Assembly: GCF_900102615.1 (NCBI RefSeq)
Contig: NZ_FMYV01000002.1
Location: 186,001 to 250,000 of the forward strand
Direction: 5' to 3'
DNA length: 64,000 nt
From: Geotoga petraea
GTDB taxonomy: Bacteria; Thermotogota; Thermotogae; Petrotogales; Petrotogaceae
Below the pieces are notes generated by a model, which saw only the letters and a list, made by a program, of their open reading frames with translations, made no database searches and had not been told where the DNA came from. Shown here one piece after another: positions 44,268 through 54,630 of the stretch. The translations under genes were made by a program, and so were the position numbers. Each line of letters opens with the position of its first letter. Within the stretch, counting starts at the first letter, position 1.

Positions 44268-45059
44268 ATGAATACTATAAAAAATTTTATACTTGGAATA
44301 TTGATGGGAATAGCCAATTTAGTTCCAGGAGTGAGTGCTGGAACAATAGCAATAATAAGTGGTAAGTATGATGACATTTTAACTTCTGCTTCTGAATTTT
44401 TATCCCTTAAATTTTCAAAGAAAATTTTATTGTTATTAGTGCCTTTATTTTTAGGTCTTATAATAGCAATATTTTCTTTCTCTAGTCTTATTATTTTATT
44501 ACTTGACAATTACGAATTGTATTTGATGAACATCTTTGTTGGACTTATATTAGGCGGGTTATTTTTAATCTTCAAGGAAATTGATATTAAAAACACAGCT
44601 AATTTAATCTCTTTTATATTATCTCTTGTTATATTCAGTTTAATATTCTTTTTCATGAATGGAAGTGCAGAAAATAATGTAAATTTTATAAATCTATTTT
44701 TTGGAGGTATAATTGGAGCTTCAGCTATGGTTTTACCGGGGATAAGTGGATCATCTATGCTTTTAATAATGGGAGTTTATGAGCCTATATTACAAGGTGT
44801 TTCAGATCTTGATTTTTCAATTTTATTACCCGTTGCAGCGGGAATAGTTTTTGGAATTATCTTCATAGTTAAACTACTTAGTTATTTGCTTAAAAATTAT
44901 TATCAAATTATTATGTCCATATTACTGGCTTTAACTCTAAGCGGTGGATTAAAAATTTTACCTTTAACAGACAATTATTTTAGCTATCTTTTTATAATAC
45001 TTGGTATAATATTTGGAATTCTCTTAGAAAATTTCTTTAAAATTAACAAGAGAGCTTAA
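44268..45059 (+). CDS. DUF368-family membrane protein, candidate undecaprenyl-phosphate translocase
   Basis: The 263-residue protein has about eight membrane segments and two internal repeats: MGIANLVPGVSAGTIAIISG at the start and GASAMVLPGISGSSMLLIMG in the middle, both with the VPG/LPG-(S)-G-S pattern of DUF368. Members of this family (PopT) are known to return undecaprenyl phosphate to the cytoplasmic face. Placement directly after uppP fits that role. A GGGGG site precedes the ATG. Confidence 0.88.
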   Translation: MNTIKNFILGILMGIANLVPGVSAGTIAIISGKYDDILTSASEFLSLKFSKKILLLLVPLFLGLIIAIFSFSSLIILLLDNYELYLMNIFVGLILGGLFLIFKEIDIKNTANLISFILSLVIFSLIFFFMNGSAENNVNFINLFFGGIIGASAMVLPGISGSSMLLIMGVYEPILQGVSDLDFSILLPVAAGIVFGIIFIVKLLSYLLKNYYQIIMSILLALTLSGGLKILPLTDNYFSYLFIILGIIFGILLENFFKINKRA

Positions 45060-45074
45060 TAAAGCTCTCTTGTT
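45045..45074. terminator. Bidirectional terminator
   Basis: AACAAGAGAGCTT (45045-45057) pairs exactly with AAGCTCTCTTGTT (45062-45074) around 4 bases. It overlaps the ends of the DUF368 gene and the converging HExxH gene. Confidence 0.9.
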
Positions 45075-45538
45075 TTTATATAATTAATTATCTCATAATA
45101 ATCCATTTTTCTATACTCACTATATCCCTCTTCATTTTTGAAATCATTTAAAAGGTATAAAATAACCCCTTCTTGCTCATAGCTGGTTAAATCAGTTTTC
45201 TCCGTTAAGTAATAATGTAATATTTCATGGTTAACTGTTTTTCTAACGTCTAATAGATTATCAAAATATTTGAAAGGCGTTATAATTATATACTTTTTTC
45301 CGTCGATTACTAATAATGCCCCATTATAATAACTGTATGGCAAATTGGTTAATTGCGTGAATTCATTTAAAGTTTTTGTTTCAATTACTTGCATACTTAT
45401 CTTTTTATATCCCAAGTCGTCAAGGATTTTCAATATTTTGCTTTCTTTATTTATAAATCTATCGGAAGAATAAACATCATAAGAAAAACCAAAAATAATT
45501 ATAATAAAATAGATTGAAATGAAAAATTTTTTCATCAT
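45056..45538 (-). CDS. Small secreted HExxH protein, putative metalloprotease
   Basis: The 160-residue protein begins with a signal peptide (about residues 1-24). The mature part contains VNHEILHYYLTEKTDLTSYEQEGVILY, in which HEILH is an HExxH zinc motif and the downstream Glu of EQEG could be the third ligand, as in gluzincins. The domain is too small for a standard peptidase family that I can name. Its ATG overlaps the stop of the alpha-2-macroglobulin gene (ATGA), so both should be made together. Confidence 0.68.
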   Translation of the reverse strand: MMKKFFISIYFIIIIFGFSYDVYSSDRFINKESKILKILDDLGYKKISMQVIETKTLNEFTQLTNLPYSYYNGALLVIDGKKYIIITPFKYFDNLLDVRKTVNHEILHYYLTEKTDLTSYEQEGVILYLLNDFKNEEGYSEYRKMDYYEIINYIKTRELY

Positions 45539-48500
45539 TCTACCTTTAAAATTGTTTTTGTATTTATTCCATAAGAATTTGGTAGGTACATGTTGTATCC
45601 AAAGTCTGGTTTTATATAATATTCTCCTGTTGAAAGTATTTTAAAATAGTAATCATAATCACCTGAGTTATAGTAATCATTGAAAAATGTGATTTTATTT
45701 TTTCTAAAATTATACGATGTGTATGAATAACTCCAATCAGAGTACCAATAATTGTAGTATTTACCAGAATCAGTTATCCTTTTTTCTTGATAATTTTCTA
45801 ATAACTGAGAATTAGATGGTATATAGCTTTCAATTGTTAAGTAGTTTTTTATGTTAGAATCGATTTTTATTTCTGATTTTAAAATATCTCCAGATTTTAC
45901 TTTTATCTTTTCTTTATTGTAATTAATTTTGTAAATTCCTTCTATATCTGTCCAGCTATTGTTCCCAGAAAATTTTAAACCACCATAAAAAGTTATTTCA
46001 CCATTTTTATCCTCTTTTATCTTTTTCGATACCATAGGAACTCTTTCATATAAAGTAAGGTCTTCTTCATTAAATATAAAGGTCTTATCTCCAAAAAGGT
46101 ACAATTCTTCGTTTAAAGTATCCAAACTAAAAATATCATCACTTAACTCAATATCATATTGGTTAAATTTTAAATATTTTTCCCCATCTTTTTTGAACAA
46201 ATAAGTAAAATTACCTTTATGATAAGTCATAGACAAGACATTAAGATCATTTTTGTATAACAAGCCACTCTCATATTTAAAAAGGTTATTTTTTGTATCA
46301 ATCACATAAATTTCATCCTTATGAATCATAACTTCTTTTGCATTTTCTATTTTTTCCCCGAAAACGTATAGCGTTAAATCTTTATAGGTATAGTATATAT
46401 TATCACTGTATTTAAAATCCTCATCTTTTAGATAAATGTACTCATGGTCTGTTTTTTTCAAAATGGTGTCTTTAGATATATATTTAATATTTTCGACGTT
46501 AAAATCTTTAGAAATATCAATAAAATAGTCTACTATGTAAACATCATGACCCTTATATAACTTAGTACTAAACTTTTTATAAAAATTTTTGTTGATAACC
46601 ATATTTGATAAGTTTTCCTCAATCTTTTCATTTGAAAATATCTCAATTAAACCTTTATTTCTAATAACAGAACTTTTTGTGACTTCATGGAAATCAGACT
46701 CATTGTCTGATAAACTGAGATAGTTCTTTGCTTCTAAAATGGCTCTTAAAGCTATAGCAGTATCTTTTGTAGAATACCAATAATATCCTGATCTAAGATT
46801 AACAATAGTGTTCATTAACTTTATAATTGATTCATCCTTATACCCATTTTTAATCATACTTAAAAGTAAATAAGAGTTTAATTCTAAATCTGTATTATAA
46901 TAATTGTTAAATTCAAAAGCTATCATATCTTTATTCTCTTCTATTTTTTCCAAAAGTAATTCAAAAGCATTTTTATCATAAAGTGACATGAATAACAAAT
47001 CTATTTTTTCTACCTTATTAAGAGGTAAGTTAATAGCTGAATCATATAAATTCAAAACATAATTTTGATAACCGGATATTGTATTCGAACTCAAATAATT
47101 CAAACCATTATTAACAACTTGTTGACTAACTTGATAACCATATTGTTGGATAATATGAAAAGCTTCTAAAACATACGTTGTCATTAAAAGATTTGATTTT
47201 TCTGAGTTCATCCACCATCCCCAGCCTCCATCAGATCTTTGATATTTGTATAAAATTTGAAGTGATGAAGTAACTTTTTTATCTATGTCATCTATCTCAT
47301 AGCCATTTTTATCTGCTACTAAAAGAGGTATTAATGTTGAAACTGTTTGTTCAGTACATCTATATTCATATTCATCTAAAAATTTTATATTGTCTTTAAT
47401 TATGTTTTCAACTGAAAATTTTCTCCAACTATCACCTTTTTTTACTTTTACTTCTTGCATATCAGAATCAATAATCTTTACAAAATTTTGATTTATATCA
47501 TTGGCATATACATCAATAGGTAGTTTTACTATATCATCCTCAAAATCAAATATTAGATTATCCTTACCAACTGCTATAGCCTTGAGATCAAACGACACTA
47601 TTTTTGTTTCATTTGGATCTAATTGAATTTCTCCTTCAGACTTATTTATAGAAACAGATTTTTCTTGATTGTATATTTTGTAAGAAATATTCTTGGTTTT
47701 GGTAGAATTGTTTGTAACCGATAATTTCAAAGTCATTGTATCGTTTAAAGAAATGTTTTCTGGAATATACGGAGTAACATAAAACTCCTTTTTAGAAGTA
47801 TAATTAATCTTTTTGTCCTCTATTTTTTCGGAATTTATACCTAATACATTTACTCTCCACCTTGTTAAACTATCTGGATTTTTGAATTTAATTTCTTTTT
47901 CTCCATCAACTTCTATAAAAGGTATCCACAAAGCATTCTCTGGGAAGTATTCTCTAACATTTTCATTCGCTCTTGATCCCTTGTAAGAAGCAAAAACATG
48001 AGAATCCTCCGTAGACAATTCAGATAGCCTCCTAACGTAAAAGTATTCTTCTCTTCCTGATAACAAGATATTCGAAGAATATAGCTCTGGATAAAGAGAA
48101 TCTTTCATATCGTAATTATCTTCATACACATCGTATAAAGCGTCGTCTACAACAGAAATATTGTAAATACTTTTTTCAGGAGATTTTATTTTTATAGTTA
48201 CTTCTTCTCCTGGTTTATATACATCTTTTTCAATTGATAAATCAAAATTATAATTTATGTTCTCTTTTGTCATAATGGCTTTAGAACTTTTATAAACATT
48301 GCCTTGATAAATTCCAATAACCTCTACAAATACATTTCTTTCTAAAATCTTTTCAGGTAGCTCAAATTCATATTTATTTTTATCTTTTTTTAATTCTTTT
48401 TTTTCATATACATTTAAACCAGATAAGTAAATATATCCCGTCATATCTTTCGGCTTATTAATATTCACTTCATAAGTTTTAGAATTTATTTTATTTGTTT

Positions 48501-50034
48501 CTATAGATAGCTCTACTTGATCTTCATTAGGAGATATATTTAGATAAAAGCTTTTAATAGTGTCTTTATAAGAAAATTCTATTGTATAAAATCCATTGGA
48601 TAGATTCTCAATAGAAAAATCACCCAGTCCGTTTTGTACCTCTATAGATTCTTTTTGAATTATTTTTTCATTATACTGTTCGTTTTCATATACGTCTTTT
48701 TTAATAGTGAGGTCTACAAAACCAGAAATTGTATTTCCCTCTCTATCTTTCAAAGAAAGTCTATAACCATTGTTGAGTTTTAAATAAAAATCTTCTTTGC
48801 CTAAAATTTCAATATTGTATTTACCTTTGAGAACTTCAACATAATCTCTCTTTTCCATTTGCTTTTGTGATTGGTCAATCGAAATTATTTCAAGAGTGTA
48901 ATATCCATCTTCTTTAATATCAACACCTATTGGGATATTTAATACTCCATTTTCATTAGTGAATGATTTTCCATCATAAACAAGTCTATCTCTATTCATT
49001 GGATAACGTCCATAATAAACATAATATTTAATTTCTGCATTAGAAACAGGATTTCCATCATAATAATTCAGCTCAATTTCATAATCAATTGTATCCTTGT
49101 TGTAGTAAACATCATCTCTATTTATCTCAATTTCATAAGTTGGTTTCTCATAATTTTCCACAATAAAACCTGTATTTTTAACTTCTTCATTTGTTTTTAT
49201 TGTGACAGAATAATATCCAAAAGGTGCACTTTCTGAAATATAATAACTATCTGTATAAATTCCTAAATTATTTGTGGTTATTTCTTTTTCTACAAGTTTG
49301 TTCCCCGCTGGATCAGAGATGAAATAGCTCATTTTTTCATTTGGTTTTAACACATAATAATTTTCATTTCTGACGAAAGAATATATATTGAATTTAACTT
49401 CTTGATCGTTTTTGTAAATAGGTTTATCTTTTAAAAATTCAATGGGATTATTAGGATAATTATTTCTATAATAATAGAAATTTTTAAAAGCTATCCCTTT
49501 CTTACTTTTGACATAAATTTCACTTATATTTTCTATTTCATAATTTAAAACCTTTTTATCGTTTAAAATAGTAGTTTTTCCATTTTCAGTTTTAATGTAT
49601 ATATCTGAATTAACTTGATTTCCATTTTTGTCTCTCATATCAAGAAACAAATTCTTGCCGTCATAAAAAGCTATAAAATTAAGATCAGAAACCAAAAATG
49701 AATCAGAAGATATTATCTCGTTATTTTTAATGAATTCAACAAAGTACAATCCTATTTCATTTACAGTAAATTTCTCGTCTATGTTCCCTTCACTATTTGC
49801 ATTTAATATCTTGGTTTTGTATACTTTTCTTTCTTGATTTTCAACTTCTCTATTCATAATAACGTTTATATCATTTTCTATATTATAGACTTTCATAAAG
49901 ACCTGTTTTTCGTTGTATCCTTTAATAAAAATTGGATCACCAGAATTCAAGACGTTTTCACCTTGTAAATAAACGTAAGAAAATCCTAAACTAATAATTA
50001 TAAGAAAAATATTAACTAACAAGATTTTTTTCAT
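45535..50034 (-). CDS. Secreted alpha-2-macroglobulin with thioester motif
   Basis: The 1499-residue protein resembles bacterial alpha-2-macroglobulins, which trap proteases through a bait region and a reactive thioester. A signal peptide lacking a lipobox Cys comes first, then macroglobulin-type beta domains. Next are the A2M segment (WIPFIEVDGEKEIKFKNPD, SLTRWRVNVLG) and the thioester motif CTEQ at about residue 893, followed by the helical TED (SDGGWGWWMNSE). After the TED, roughly residues 1190-1370 look like repeated short strands resembling a propeller. ATG 50034 is 9 bases after GGGAG. No pbpC is adjacent. Confidence 0.88.
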   Translation of the reverse strand: MKKILLVNIFLIIISLGFSYVYLQGENVLNSGDPIFIKGYNEKQVFMKVYNIENDINVIMNREVENQERKVYKTKILNANSEGNIDEKFTVNEIGLYFVEFIKNNEIISSDSFLVSDLNFIAFYDGKNLFLDMRDKNGNQVNSDIYIKTENGKTTILNDKKVLNYEIENISEIYVKSKKGIAFKNFYYYRNNYPNNPIEFLKDKPIYKNDQEVKFNIYSFVRNENYYVLKPNEKMSYFISDPAGNKLVEKEITTNNLGIYTDSYYISESAPFGYYSVTIKTNEEVKNTGFIVENYEKPTYEIEINRDDVYYNKDTIDYEIELNYYDGNPVSNAEIKYYVYYGRYPMNRDRLVYDGKSFTNENGVLNIPIGVDIKEDGYYTLEIISIDQSQKQMEKRDYVEVLKGKYNIEILGKEDFYLKLNNGYRLSLKDREGNTISGFVDLTIKKDVYENEQYNEKIIQKESIEVQNGLGDFSIENLSNGFYTIEFSYKDTIKSFYLNISPNEDQVELSIETNKINSKTYEVNINKPKDMTGYIYLSGLNVYEKKELKKDKNKYEFELPEKILERNVFVEVIGIYQGNVYKSSKAIMTKENINYNFDLSIEKDVYKPGEEVTIKIKSPEKSIYNISVVDDALYDVYEDNYDMKDSLYPELYSSNILLSGREEYFYVRRLSELSTEDSHVFASYKGSRANENVREYFPENALWIPFIEVDGEKEIKFKNPDSLTRWRVNVLGINSEKIEDKKINYTSKKEFYVTPYIPENISLNDTMTLKLSVTNNSTKTKNISYKIYNQEKSVSINKSEGEIQLDPNETKIVSFDLKAIAVGKDNLIFDFEDDIVKLPIDVYANDINQNFVKIIDSDMQEVKVKKGDSWRKFSVENIIKDNIKFLDEYEYRCTEQTVSTLIPLLVADKNGYEIDDIDKKVTSSLQILYKYQRSDGGWGWWMNSEKSNLLMTTYVLEAFHIIQQYGYQVSQQVVNNGLNYLSSNTISGYQNYVLNLYDSAINLPLNKVEKIDLLFMSLYDKNAFELLLEKIEENKDMIAFEFNNYYNTDLELNSYLLLSMIKNGYKDESIIKLMNTIVNLRSGYYWYSTKDTAIALRAILEAKNYLSLSDNESDFHEVTKSSVIRNKGLIEIFSNEKIEENLSNMVINKNFYKKFSTKLYKGHDVYIVDYFIDISKDFNVENIKYISKDTILKKTDHEYIYLKDEDFKYSDNIYYTYKDLTLYVFGEKIENAKEVMIHKDEIYVIDTKNNLFKYESGLLYKNDLNVLSMTYHKGNFTYLFKKDGEKYLKFNQYDIELSDDIFSLDTLNEELYLFGDKTFIFNEEDLTLYERVPMVSKKIKEDKNGEITFYGGLKFSGNNSWTDIEGIYKINYNKEKIKVKSGDILKSEIKIDSNIKNYLTIESYIPSNSQLLENYQEKRITDSGKYYNYWYSDWSYSYTSYNFRKNKITFFNDYYNSGDYDYYFKILSTGEYYIKPDFGYNMYLPNSYGINTKTILKVE

Positions 50035-50048
50035 ATTTCCCATCTCCC

Positions 50049-51050
50049 TTATATAATAAATATCTTTTCTCTTTCTATAAATCTATTCAAATAATTTATC
50101 AAAGAATTTATTGCAGTTTCTTTTTCTTTTAATGGATATGTAGCTATGGAATCTATGACCTCAAAATTATTAAAAATTATTGGCGAATTAGAATGCTTTT
50201 TTAAATTTTTTAAATATACATTTGGAATTCTAAAAAAACCTATGCTTAAGTCTCTTATAAATTCATGATTTAAAAAATTAAAGATTTTATCGATTAGTAG
50301 TTTATACTCTTTTAAAAAATCACCTTCAATTATTATAGGATCAATAGATAATCTAACTTTAATTCCCATATCTTGAACCTTCTTTATTGAAACCAGCCTT
50401 TCATCTAAATTAGCTGTTTTCTTTTCATATTTTTCTATAAACTTTTGTGGGTTTAATGTCCAGGCAGGTATAACATTATCAATATTTTTATTTGAAAGAA
50501 CATTATGAAAGATATTTGATTTTGTTCTAATTTCCATCTTAATATTACTTAATTCATTTATTTTGTTAATCCATTCACCTATAAAAGGATATATATTTTC
50601 AAAAATTGGTATATCTGTATCATATCCATAACTCAAATAAATATTCTTGTAAGATTTTGATATTTTTTCTATTTCATAGAAAAATTCTTCTATATTTACA
50701 AAAACCACTATATTACTTGATGGATACATACCACCTAAATAACAGTATTTACAGTCAAAAAGACAGTTAATTATATTGTTAGCATAAAAAAAAGCAGAAT
50801 TGTTGAAATCGTGACACATTTTACTTCCTTGATAGATAAAATTATCTTTTTTTTCAGCAATTATGATTTTTTGAGATTGTTTTTGAATTGAAAAATTTTG
50901 ATCGAACCCAGAAAACACTTCCTTGTAATCATCAATATAAATTACTTTAGAATCTTTAAACTTAGATAAAATATTTTTTGTAATGTAATTATTAGCGACT
51001 TGTTTTTCCACATAAATATGCGAAAAACTACGATTTAATAATTTGCTCAA
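50049..51050 (-). CDS. Spore photoproduct lyase-like radical SAM protein
   Basis: The 333-residue protein contains a CX3CX2C cluster motif (C96, C100, C103: INCLFDCKYCYLGGMYPSS) and the VFVN/LSYGYDTD strands of the spore photoproduct lyase family. No Cys follows C103, so the H-donor corresponding to Cys141 of Bacillus SplB is missing; Tyr occupies the region. A thymine-dimer repair role is therefore doubtful. It starts with TTG, overlapping the preceding gene by 23 bases, with AAAGGA upstream. The organism is not a known spore former. Confidence 0.8.
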   Translation of the reverse strand: MSKLLNRSFSHIYVEKQVANNYITKNILSKFKDSKVIYIDDYKEVFSGFDQNFSIQKQSQKIIIAEKKDNFIYQGSKMCHDFNNSAFFYANNIINCLFDCKYCYLGGMYPSSNIVVFVNIEEFFYEIEKISKSYKNIYLSYGYDTDIPIFENIYPFIGEWINKINELSNIKMEIRTKSNIFHNVLSNKNIDNVIPAWTLNPQKFIEKYEKKTANLDERLVSIKKVQDMGIKVRLSIDPIIIEGDFLKEYKLLIDKIFNFLNHEFIRDLSIGFFRIPNVYLKNLKKHSNSPIIFNNFEVIDSIATYPLKEKETAINSLINYLNRFIEREKIFII

Positions 51051-51813
51051 AATAACAATTCCTTTCTCTCTTATTATTAAATTCTTTTTTAATTATTTCA
51101 TCCAATAAGTTGTTTATTTCTTTTCCATCTAATAAAAATTGGTATAATTTTTTAATAATTAGATCTTTTTGAACTTTGGTGAAATTACTTTTAATCATAG
51201 AGCTTTTTATGTATTTGAGTTCTTTTATTTTATAAATTTTCTCCTGCTCATCGCTTATATTATATAACTTTTCAAATGTTTTATCTAATCCATCATTTAA
51301 ATCTATATTTTTTAAATCAAAATTGTTTTTACCATTATCACTGATTTTTTTTATCATAAAAATGTTTTGTCTATCAAAAAACTTTCTTGATATTTGATAA
51401 AAGGCATAGCCTTCCATATCGTACAACATATTCTTTTCCATTTCATTATTTTCAACAGGTTTTGGCATTGTTACTAAACTTCTTTCTTGTAATCCCAAAT
51501 CGTAAGTCAAGTCAAAGTACATATTTTTATTTAAGCAAAAGTCCTTTACTGTATTAATCCTAAAAATATTGTTTACATATTTTATTTCTTTTGTAGCAGC
51601 AAATCCATAATTTAATATTAGGTCATTTTTTTGAGGCTCAAATAATCTACAGATATAAGAAATGGAGGAGCTTACATTGTAAGCTCCTATGCCTGATATT
51701 ATTAATTTAATTTTTGTATTCTCATAAATATCAAAAAAATAGTCTTTTATCTTTACTAAATTTTCTTTTATAAATCTTTTTTCTTGTTTAGAAGATACTA
51801 CAACATAAATCAT
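51028..51813 (-). CDS. Nucleoside phosphorylase/nucleosidase-like protein
   Basis: The 261-residue protein resembles the PNP/MTA-SAH nucleosidase superfamily. LIISGIGAYNVSSSISYI and LNYGFAATKE match the phosphate- or ribose-side strands, and YDMEGYAFYQISRKF carries the DMEG(A) motif that binds the ribose, followed by KKISDNGKNN. The C-terminal ~80 residues are a helical addition. It is translationally coupled to the radical SAM gene. Cleavage of 5'-deoxyadenosine, a radical SAM by-product, is an attractive but unproven guess. Confidence 0.75.
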   Translation of the reverse strand: MIYVVVSSKQEKRFIKENLVKIKDYFFDIYENTKIKLIISGIGAYNVSSSISYICRLFEPQKNDLILNYGFAATKEIKYVNNIFRINTVKDFCLNKNMYFDLTYDLGLQERSLVTMPKPVENNEMEKNMLYDMEGYAFYQISRKFFDRQNIFMIKKISDNGKNNFDLKNIDLNDGLDKTFEKLYNISDEQEKIYKIKELKYIKSSMIKSNFTKVQKDLIIKKLYQFLLDGKEINNLLDEIIKKEFNNKRERNCYFEQIIKS

Positions 51814-53209: not shown

Positions 53210-53839
53210 TCAATCCCTCACTTTATAAGGTTTTTCTTCTTGCCTTAGAAAATCTAATTTAATAGATTTTTTTTCAATAATATTTTTAATCGGTTCAATT
53301 TTTTCCTCGTCAATTGATATTTCAAGATAGACATTTTCAGTAAATTTCGTCTCTATTATTTCCCATCCAATTTCTCTTTTCAATAATCTTTCTATTTCTG
53401 CGTGTTGTGAGTAATCAGTAACAATTCCATAAATAAAGGCGTTTCGATATTCAACTATTTTTGAGTTTTTAACAGTTTCAAAAGTTGTCTTAGAATAGGC
53501 ATCAATTAGACCTCTTACTCCTAATTTAACACCACCAAAAAAACGGGTTACAACGCAAACAATGTTGTTCAAATTCATTTTTTGAATTTCACCAAAAATT
53601 GGTTTCCCTGCGGAACCAGATGGTTCACCATTATCAGTGTAGTTGAAATACTCTCGATTTTCATCAGTTACAAAATAGGCCCAACAATTGTGATTGGCAT
53701 TTTTATACAATTCGCTTATCGATTTTATAAATTCTTTAGCCTGTTGCTCAGAGTTAACTTTAGAACAGTTACCAATAAATTCTGATCTTTTAATGTTTAT
53801 TTTTGTTTCTTTATTTTTTAATATGGATTTGTATGGCAT
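53210..53839 (-). CDS. YigZ/IMPACT family protein
   Basis: The 209-residue protein has the UPF0029 N-terminal domain with SEFIGNCSKVNSEQQAKEFI, NHNCWAYFV and DNGEPSGSAGKPIFGEIQ, plus the C-terminal DUF1949 domain. Family members interact with ribosomes or translation factors, though the bacterial role is unclear. It overlaps the SAM-hydrolase gene by one base and is 1 base from dnaX. Confidence 0.92.
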   Translation of the reverse strand: MPYKSILKNKETKINIKRSEFIGNCSKVNSEQQAKEFIKSISELYKNANHNCWAYFVTDENREYFNYTDNGEPSGSAGKPIFGEIQKMNLNNIVCVVTRFFGGVKLGVRGLIDAYSKTTFETVKNSKIVEYRNAFIYGIVTDYSQHAEIERLLKREIGWEIIETKFTENVYLEISIDEEKIEPIKNIIEKKSIKLDFLRQEEKPYKVRD

Positions 53840-54630
53840 TATTTGATCTTCTTTATTTCAAACTTAGTATTAAAGTTTTTTATATTAAGATAAGAAGCTG
53901 CCGAGCCTTTGTAAATTGAAATTTCTAAATAATTAGAACTGTCAAAATGCATTAATAATTTATCGTCACCACATTCCGAATAATATTCTTTATAGTTTAA
54001 AGGATATTCTTTACCTTCAAAAGAAATAACATAACTACTATGTTTGTCAAAATTAAATGTATTATTATTCTCAACATCTGTTTCTAAATTTCCAAAACTA
54101 TCTTTATACAAAAAATGTCCTATTATATTATTTTTATTGTAGAAAGGATTTTTTATATTCAGCTCATTAATTTTTAAAAGCTCGTTTCCAAAATATTTAA
54201 AATTTATGTTTTTTGATAGATAAGCTGCAAATGCTCCAAAAATATCTCTACCATGAAAAGTGTTACTTTCTTTCCAAAAATAGTTTTTGTTATTTAATTC
54301 AATAATCTTATTAATTCCATATTTTCTTTTAACCTGAGTTAAAATTCCATTGTCAGGGGCTATAAAATAATATTTTGGTTGATTTGTTTCTACTAAAATG
54401 GCTTTTCTTGAACTCCCTACAGTTGGATCGATAACAACCAAAAATATTGTATTTTCTTGAAATTCTTTGGACGCTCTTAGCAAAATGTGTGAATAGGAAT
54501 AAATATCATATTTTCCCATATTATGCGTAATATCTATTATCTCAGCATTTTTATTTATATTTTTTATTACTGATTTTACAGAAGAGACATAATAACTATC
54601 TTCTCCCCAATCTGTAATAAAAGCTATCAT
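53839..54630 (-). CDS. SAM hydroxide adenosyltransferase (DUF62 family)
   Basis: The 263-residue protein belongs to the fluorinase/chlorinase-like superfamily whose common bacterial members hydrolyse S-adenosylmethionine to adenosine and methionine. FITDWGEDSYYV, VIDPTVGSSRKAI, FIAPDNGILT and FHGRDIFGAFAAYL are present, the last supplying the His and Arg expected of the water-activating Asp-His-Arg set. The halogenase loop is absent. Its biological purpose is generally unknown. Confidence 0.88.
   Translation of the reverse strand: MIAFITDWGEDSYYVSSVKSVIKNINKNAEIIDITHNMGKYDIYSYSHILLRASKEFQENTIFLVVIDPTVGSSRKAILVETNQPKYYFIAPDNGILTQVKRKYGINKIIELNNKNYFWKESNTFHGRDIFGAFAAYLSKNINFKYFGNELLKINELNIKNPFYNKNNIIGHFLYKDSFGNLETDVENNNTFNFDKHSSYVISFEGKEYPLNYKEYYSECGDDKLLMHFDSSNYLEISIYKGSAASYLNIKNFNTKFEIKKIK

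Follow-up and report, generated by a model that had tools for sequence, protein, structure and literature searches.

What does a relative of spore photoproduct lyase (SPL) do in Thermotogota, a phylum not known to us to form endospores, and what is the role of the nucleosidase-like protein encoded beside it? The locus lies in a 64,000-nucleotide stretch of the Geotoga petraea genome (contig NZ_FMYV01000002.1, positions 186,001 to 250,000), analysed as a whole and called the window here. An initial annotation had proposed a two-protein radical SAM system. That finding is real: the linkage of the two genes is stronger than was described, the claim of a missing cysteine was too strong, and the weight laid on a nearby SAM hydrolase gene is unsupported. 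The pair, commonly misannotated as an enzyme of spore DNA repair and one that cleaves nucleosides, probably carries out an undescribed radical reaction jointly rather than spore repair.

A conserved, overlapping gene pair

Both genes are on the minus strand. The upstream one (51028..51813) encodes a 261-residue nucleosidase-like protein of the MTAN/PNP superfamily, with an MTAN-type fold and the catalytic residues E11, E134 and D159; the downstream one (50049..51050) starts at TTG and encodes a 333-residue SPL-like radical SAM protein that matches PF20903 and adopts an SPL fold in its AlphaFold2 (AF2) model. The two reading frames share 23 nt (51028..51050, minus strand), exactly as had been described. 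The position of the overlap is nearly fixed across the family, the nucleosidase stop lying 1–7 nt before the FSHIY codons of the SPL-like gene in most loci. The window holds no RNA elements or tRNAs, and the pair has no plasmid homologues at the DNA level.

Genomes were scanned with SPL-like peptide patterns, blind to the neighbouring gene; this yielded at least 571 confirmed relatives, of which 80 loci were kept. The nucleosidase gene adjoins the SPL-like gene, directly upstream, in 77 of these 80, a count that includes one fusion (L080), one locus cut by a contig edge (L059) and one with broken frames (L034); the exceptions are L044, which lies at a contig edge, L094 and L097. Homologues are thus not scattered singly, and the conserved adjacency or fusion expected of a two-protein system is found. 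Co-occurrence follows the same pattern. In the order of the window's genome, 14 of 38 genomes carry the SPL-like gene; the nucleosidase is present in exactly these 14, and a partial copy of it occurs in one further genome. Among 117 genomes of the clostridial family that includes Clostridium hydrogenum, 26 carry the SPL-like gene, and each of these 26, with no others, has a strong adjacent nucleosidase; solo nucleosidases are almost nil, and one further genome gives a weak match. The corresponding Fisher p of ~1e-26 is overstated, as these genomes share ancestry; the spread of the pair over at least eight bacterial phyla is independent of this statistic and of its shared-ancestry problem.

Two loci deserve separate mention. 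In one Clostridiales MAG (L080:1-1644), the nucleosidase and the SPL-like protein form an in-frame fusion that lies at a contig edge and has its N-terminus cut. In Caloramator sp. mosi_1 (L034:3157-5656), the nucleosidase and an accompanying short-chain dehydrogenase (SDR) are split over several frames, reflecting either a decayed module or sequencing errors.

The nucleosidase and the SPL-like gene are a conserved, overlapping and co-inherited unit, and the proposed two-protein system is strongly supported by gene order, overlap, co-occurrence and the one fusion. That they form a functional unit separate from SPL is, in our estimate, very likely. We found no paper on the pair, or on the trio with the SDR, in the literature searched, and as far as that literature shows, the pair, with or without the SDR, is an undescribed conserved module.

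A divergent family with the fold of spore photoproduct lyase

The SPL-like protein matches PF20903 at 47.8 bits (cut-off 27) and TIGR04070 at 60.1 bits, which does not reach the curated equivalog cut-off of 400 bits. Its AF2 model (pLDDT 92.8, pTM 0.90; alignment of 47 rows) has SPL structures as its best six PDB matches, with TM-scores of 0.81–0.83 to Geobacillus SPL, and the CX3CX2C cluster motif corresponds to C96-C100-C103, bearing out the SPL-type architecture read from the sequence. In the tree, the window family and the true SPLs form separate clades (SH-aLRT 100) divided by a very long branch. The two proteins also coexist: of the 20 carrier genomes that were searched, eight, all clostridial (from Clostridium, Caloramator, Thermobrachium, Thermotalea and 14S0207), give both a weak window-type match (52–78 bits) and a strong match that is a true SPL (402–497 bits), and in none of these eight does a nucleosidase of the paired type adjoin the true SPL. 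This coexistence rules out an identification of the window protein with the clostridial, C74-type SPL. The SPL-like protein has the SPL fold and belongs to a separate, deeply divergent family, distinct from true SPL.

Comparison with eight true SPLs separates shared from family-specific residues. The cluster cysteines, Y102, T176-K177, E209 and R218 are common to the window family and true SPLs, and the second relay tyrosine, Y104, is kept by 84 of 92 homologues. Conversely, the residues that the window family conserves and that none of the eight true SPLs possesses include Y143 and the invariant E173, R175 and D237. E173, R175 and K177 alternate along one strand, the strand lysine being K174 in Geobacillus numbering; judged from this alternation, the pocket is probably more charged than that of true SPL. 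The suggestion of a substrate other than spore photoproduct thus gains indirect support from the eight carriers with an additional true SPL, the separate clade and the family-specific charged residues of the predicted active site.

The cysteines require a more qualified reading. The window protein has four in all (C79, C96, C100 and C103), leaving C79 as the sole non-cluster cysteine. No cysteine follows C103, as originally reported, and the Bacillus H-donor position (Cys140/141) is occupied by Tyr143, a Tyr in 91 of 92 homologues. The statement that the repair cysteine is missing holds for the Bacillus position and is too strong as a general one, since it overlooked C79 ahead of the cluster, which is invariant in all 14 members of the order and conserved as Cys in 80 of the 92 homologues. 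In the remaining 12 the residue is Ser, Ala or Ile, and every one of them retains a Cys at position 235; these proteins (L032, L043, L050, L059, L061, L071, L074, L078, L082, L091, L094 and L096) include no named Bacillota.

A pre-cluster donor has a precedent. The SPL of Clostridium acetobutylicum uses a conserved N-terminal cysteine, C74, in place of C141, and ~20% of its product is the escaped sulfinate (PMC5368176). The true clostridial SPLs that we recovered carry this cysteine in a QSCKPS motif. An engineered counterpart, chain u71585 (4rh0), which is Geobacillus SPL with the C140A/S76C mutations, has a Cys at that point of the loop too. The candidate equivalent in the window protein is C79, which lies in this donor loop but is three residues off in either alignment register, the true-SPL cysteine being placed at S76 or at F82. 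The loop is also longer, with C79 17 residues ahead of the first cluster cysteine and the QSCKPS cysteine 14. Because C79 is invariant in the order, the cysteine argument for a different substrate is weakened.

The paired nucleosidase, the SDR and other neighbours

The nucleosidase had been described as a PNP/MTAN-superfamily protein with an extra helical C-terminus, and the AF2 model (pLDDT 90.1) agrees: its best fold matches are MTANs (Foldseek E 2.6e-12, TM 0.57), and residues ~176–260 form a helical extension, with five helices beyond residue 175. E12, E174 and D197 of the Escherichia coli MTAN correspond to E11, E134 and D159, which are kept in 85, 86 and 83 of 86 nucleosidases, respectively. 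Within the order, PF01048 matches 13 of the 14 nucleosidases, the window copy being the one without a match; futalosine hydrolase models likewise match 13 of 14 and HpnG models 8 of 14, and MTAN models score about as well as those for futalosine hydrolase. TIGR01704 (MTA/SAH nucleosidase, MtnN/Pfs) gives no match to the window nucleosidase at E 0.01 and none anywhere in its genome at E 1e-8, and a canonical MTAN above cut-off occurs in none of the 38 genomes of the order. The Clostridium and Caloramator carriers examined also hold a canonical MTAN, which makes the paired nucleosidase an extra, specialised enzyme there. That it substitutes for a missing general MTAN is unsupported, since non-carrier relatives also lack one and the Clostridium carriers have one.

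A third partner, invisible to the initial annotation, is an SDR gene that accompanies the pair at 50 of the 80 loci, downstream at 49 and upstream at one. Its Ser-Tyr-Lys triad is S129, Y142 and K146, and its GxGRD motif suggests a preference for NADP(H). In the clostridial family the SDR occurs in 20 genomes, all of them among the 26 pair carriers; in two (G130 and G172) it is encoded elsewhere in the genome, still together with the pair. Most Thermotogota carriers have no such SDR: in the window's order, a true ortholog was found in one genome (G035, locus L002), and the window's own genome has generic SDRs and no ortholog (best E 6e-23 vs 5e-146).

Among the 86 upstream proteins scanned, no other family recurred more than four times, a control showing how specific the association is. 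The SAM hydrolase-family gene to which the initial annotation drew attention is present in the same gene run (53839-54630, minus strand; SAM hydrolase/hydroxide adenosyltransferase, PF01887, 150 bits), but the suggested link is unsupported, and the gene was rejected as a third partner because none of its kind comes up repeatedly among those upstream proteins. Directly downstream of the pair, at 45535-50043 (minus strand), lies a gene for a 1502-residue protein that resembles bacterial alpha-2-macroglobulins and contains CTEQ, a thioester-type motif; a homologue occupies the same place at L003. The macroglobulin-like gene overlaps by 4 nt a gene (45056-45538, minus strand) for a small secreted-looking protein that has no Pfam match and contains HEILH, an HExxH motif; this is possibly a protease partner. 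In six Thermotogota carriers (L004, L006 and L009-L012), the neighbours of the pair include convergent genes for spermidine synthase and a SAM decarboxylase-like protein, a pathway that makes MTA.

Candidate reactions and known relatives

So tight a link between a nucleosidase and a radical SAM enzyme suggests that the former acts on a nucleoside made by the latter. In the explanation that we tentatively favour, and that as a whole could quite possibly be correct, the SPL-like enzyme would cleave SAM, and the 5'-deoxyadenosyl radical would add to a substrate to give an adenosyl-containing product, the product radical being quenched by C79 or by the tyrosine relay. The paired nucleosidase would then strip the adenine, and the SDR, where present, would reduce the exposed sugar with NADP(H); in the window's genome, where the SDR ortholog is absent, the pathway would end at the deadenylated product or take another reductase. 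Similar chemistry is established elsewhere. MqnB removes adenine after the radical adenosyl transfer by MqnE. HpnG does the same to the product of radical adenosyl transfer by HpnH (PMC12583986), and the matches of the paired nucleosidases to futalosine hydrolase and HpnG models count in favour of this mechanism. The adenosyl addition itself is a tentative proposal: characterised SPLs, whose fold this protein shares, abstract hydrogen rather than add adenosyl; the MTAN-model matches are comparable to those of futalosine hydrolase; and the SDR is missing in most Thermotogota carriers.

The conserved clustering would fit by-product clearance too. Under that explanation, SAM would be a consumed co-substrate, the nucleosidase would destroy inhibitory 5'-deoxyadenosine on the spot, and the SDR would reduce or oxidise the 5-deoxyribose. 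To our knowledge, radical SAM enzymes generally lack dedicated nucleosidases, and the canonical MTAN of the Clostridium and Caloramator carriers examined could already do this job. These two points, and the fit of an SDR to sugar reduction, modestly favour an adenosylated product over free 5'-deoxyadenosine. The paired nucleosidase, for its part, retains the MTAN catalytic residues, 5'-deoxyadenosine, a nucleoside that MTAN cleaves, does inhibit radical SAM enzymes (PMC8102628), and loss of the Bacillus donor cysteine would fit a move from catalytic to consumed SAM. Clearance could also matter more in the window's order, which has no canonical MTAN, but same-family relatives without the pair lack it too, so that the paired enzyme is not a mere replacement. 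On balance, we regard clearance as somewhat less likely than adenosyl addition. Less probable again, and in our judgement unlikely, is DNA repair, in which a divergent photoproduct or cross-link lyase would act in vegetative cells with C79 in place of the Bacillus donor cysteine, as C74 is used in clostridial SPL. The fold (TM 0.82), the retention of Y102, T176-K177 and, in most homologues, Y104, and the place of C79 within the loop of the clostridial donor are all compatible with such a lyase. However, eight clostridial carriers also have a true SPL, from which the clade lies very far, 12 of the 92 homologues lack C79, such a role would hardly account for a nucleosidase and an SDR, and the family occurs in phyla not known to us to form endospores. 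Repair was proposed, in a 2009 genome paper, for a gene of Nautilia that appears to be a member of the SPL-like family, and a figure legend of that paper places this SPL-related gene near an SDR (PMC2628731).

Returning to adenosyl addition followed by deadenylation, the pair might belong to a widespread, undescribed pathway in which deoxyadenosyl is placed on a common metabolite or macromolecule, the nucleosidase removes adenine and the SDR finishes the sugar, a broader proposal that we hold with still more reserve. It would show how the scaffold of SPL, on which the Bacillus enzyme recycles SAM, was adapted to a reaction needing an adenine-removing partner, and would add a further independent case of adenosylate–deadenylate logic, hidden in hundreds of species under a spore photolyase annotation. 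Hundreds of genomes, many of them from phyla in which sporulation is not known, have genes labelled 'spore photoproduct lyase' that appear to belong to a different enzyme family, one whose partners are an obligate nucleosidase and, frequently, a reductase; a misannotation becomes a testable pathway.

Among known systems, SPL (SplB; PF20903, TIGR04070; PDB 4fhc, 4rh0) shares with the window family the fold, the CX3CX2C cluster, Y102 and Y104 at the radical-relay tyrosines, T176-K177, E209 and R218, whereas Tyr143 at the donor position, the shifted donor-loop cysteine, E173/R175/D237, the separate clade, a score of 60 against 400 bits and the obligate nucleosidase neighbour set this family apart. 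The C74-type SPL of C. acetobutylicum and the C140A/S76C mutant (4rh0) resemble it further in having no Cys at 140/141 and a conserved or introduced one in the pre-cluster loop, but true clostridial SPL has its cysteine in QSCKPS, 14 rather than 17 residues before the cluster, and no such nucleosidase beside it. The paired nucleosidase has the fold and the catalytic Glu, Glu and Asp of MTAN (Pfs), yet differs in its low identity (~13–18% in fold matches), scores below model cut-offs, extra helical C-terminus and strict link to the SPL-like gene. In the futalosine pathway of menaquinone synthesis, MqnE and MqnB combine radical SAM adenosyl addition with an MTAN-family nucleosidase, a sequence of steps that the architecture suggests here, although MqnE is of a different radical SAM family and gives only a weak fold match to the SPL-like model. 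HpnH and HpnG of hopanoid side-chain synthesis likewise couple a radical SAM enzyme to an adenine remover of the PNP/MTAN superfamily, after which the freed ribosyl group is reduced; HpnH lies outside the SPL family.
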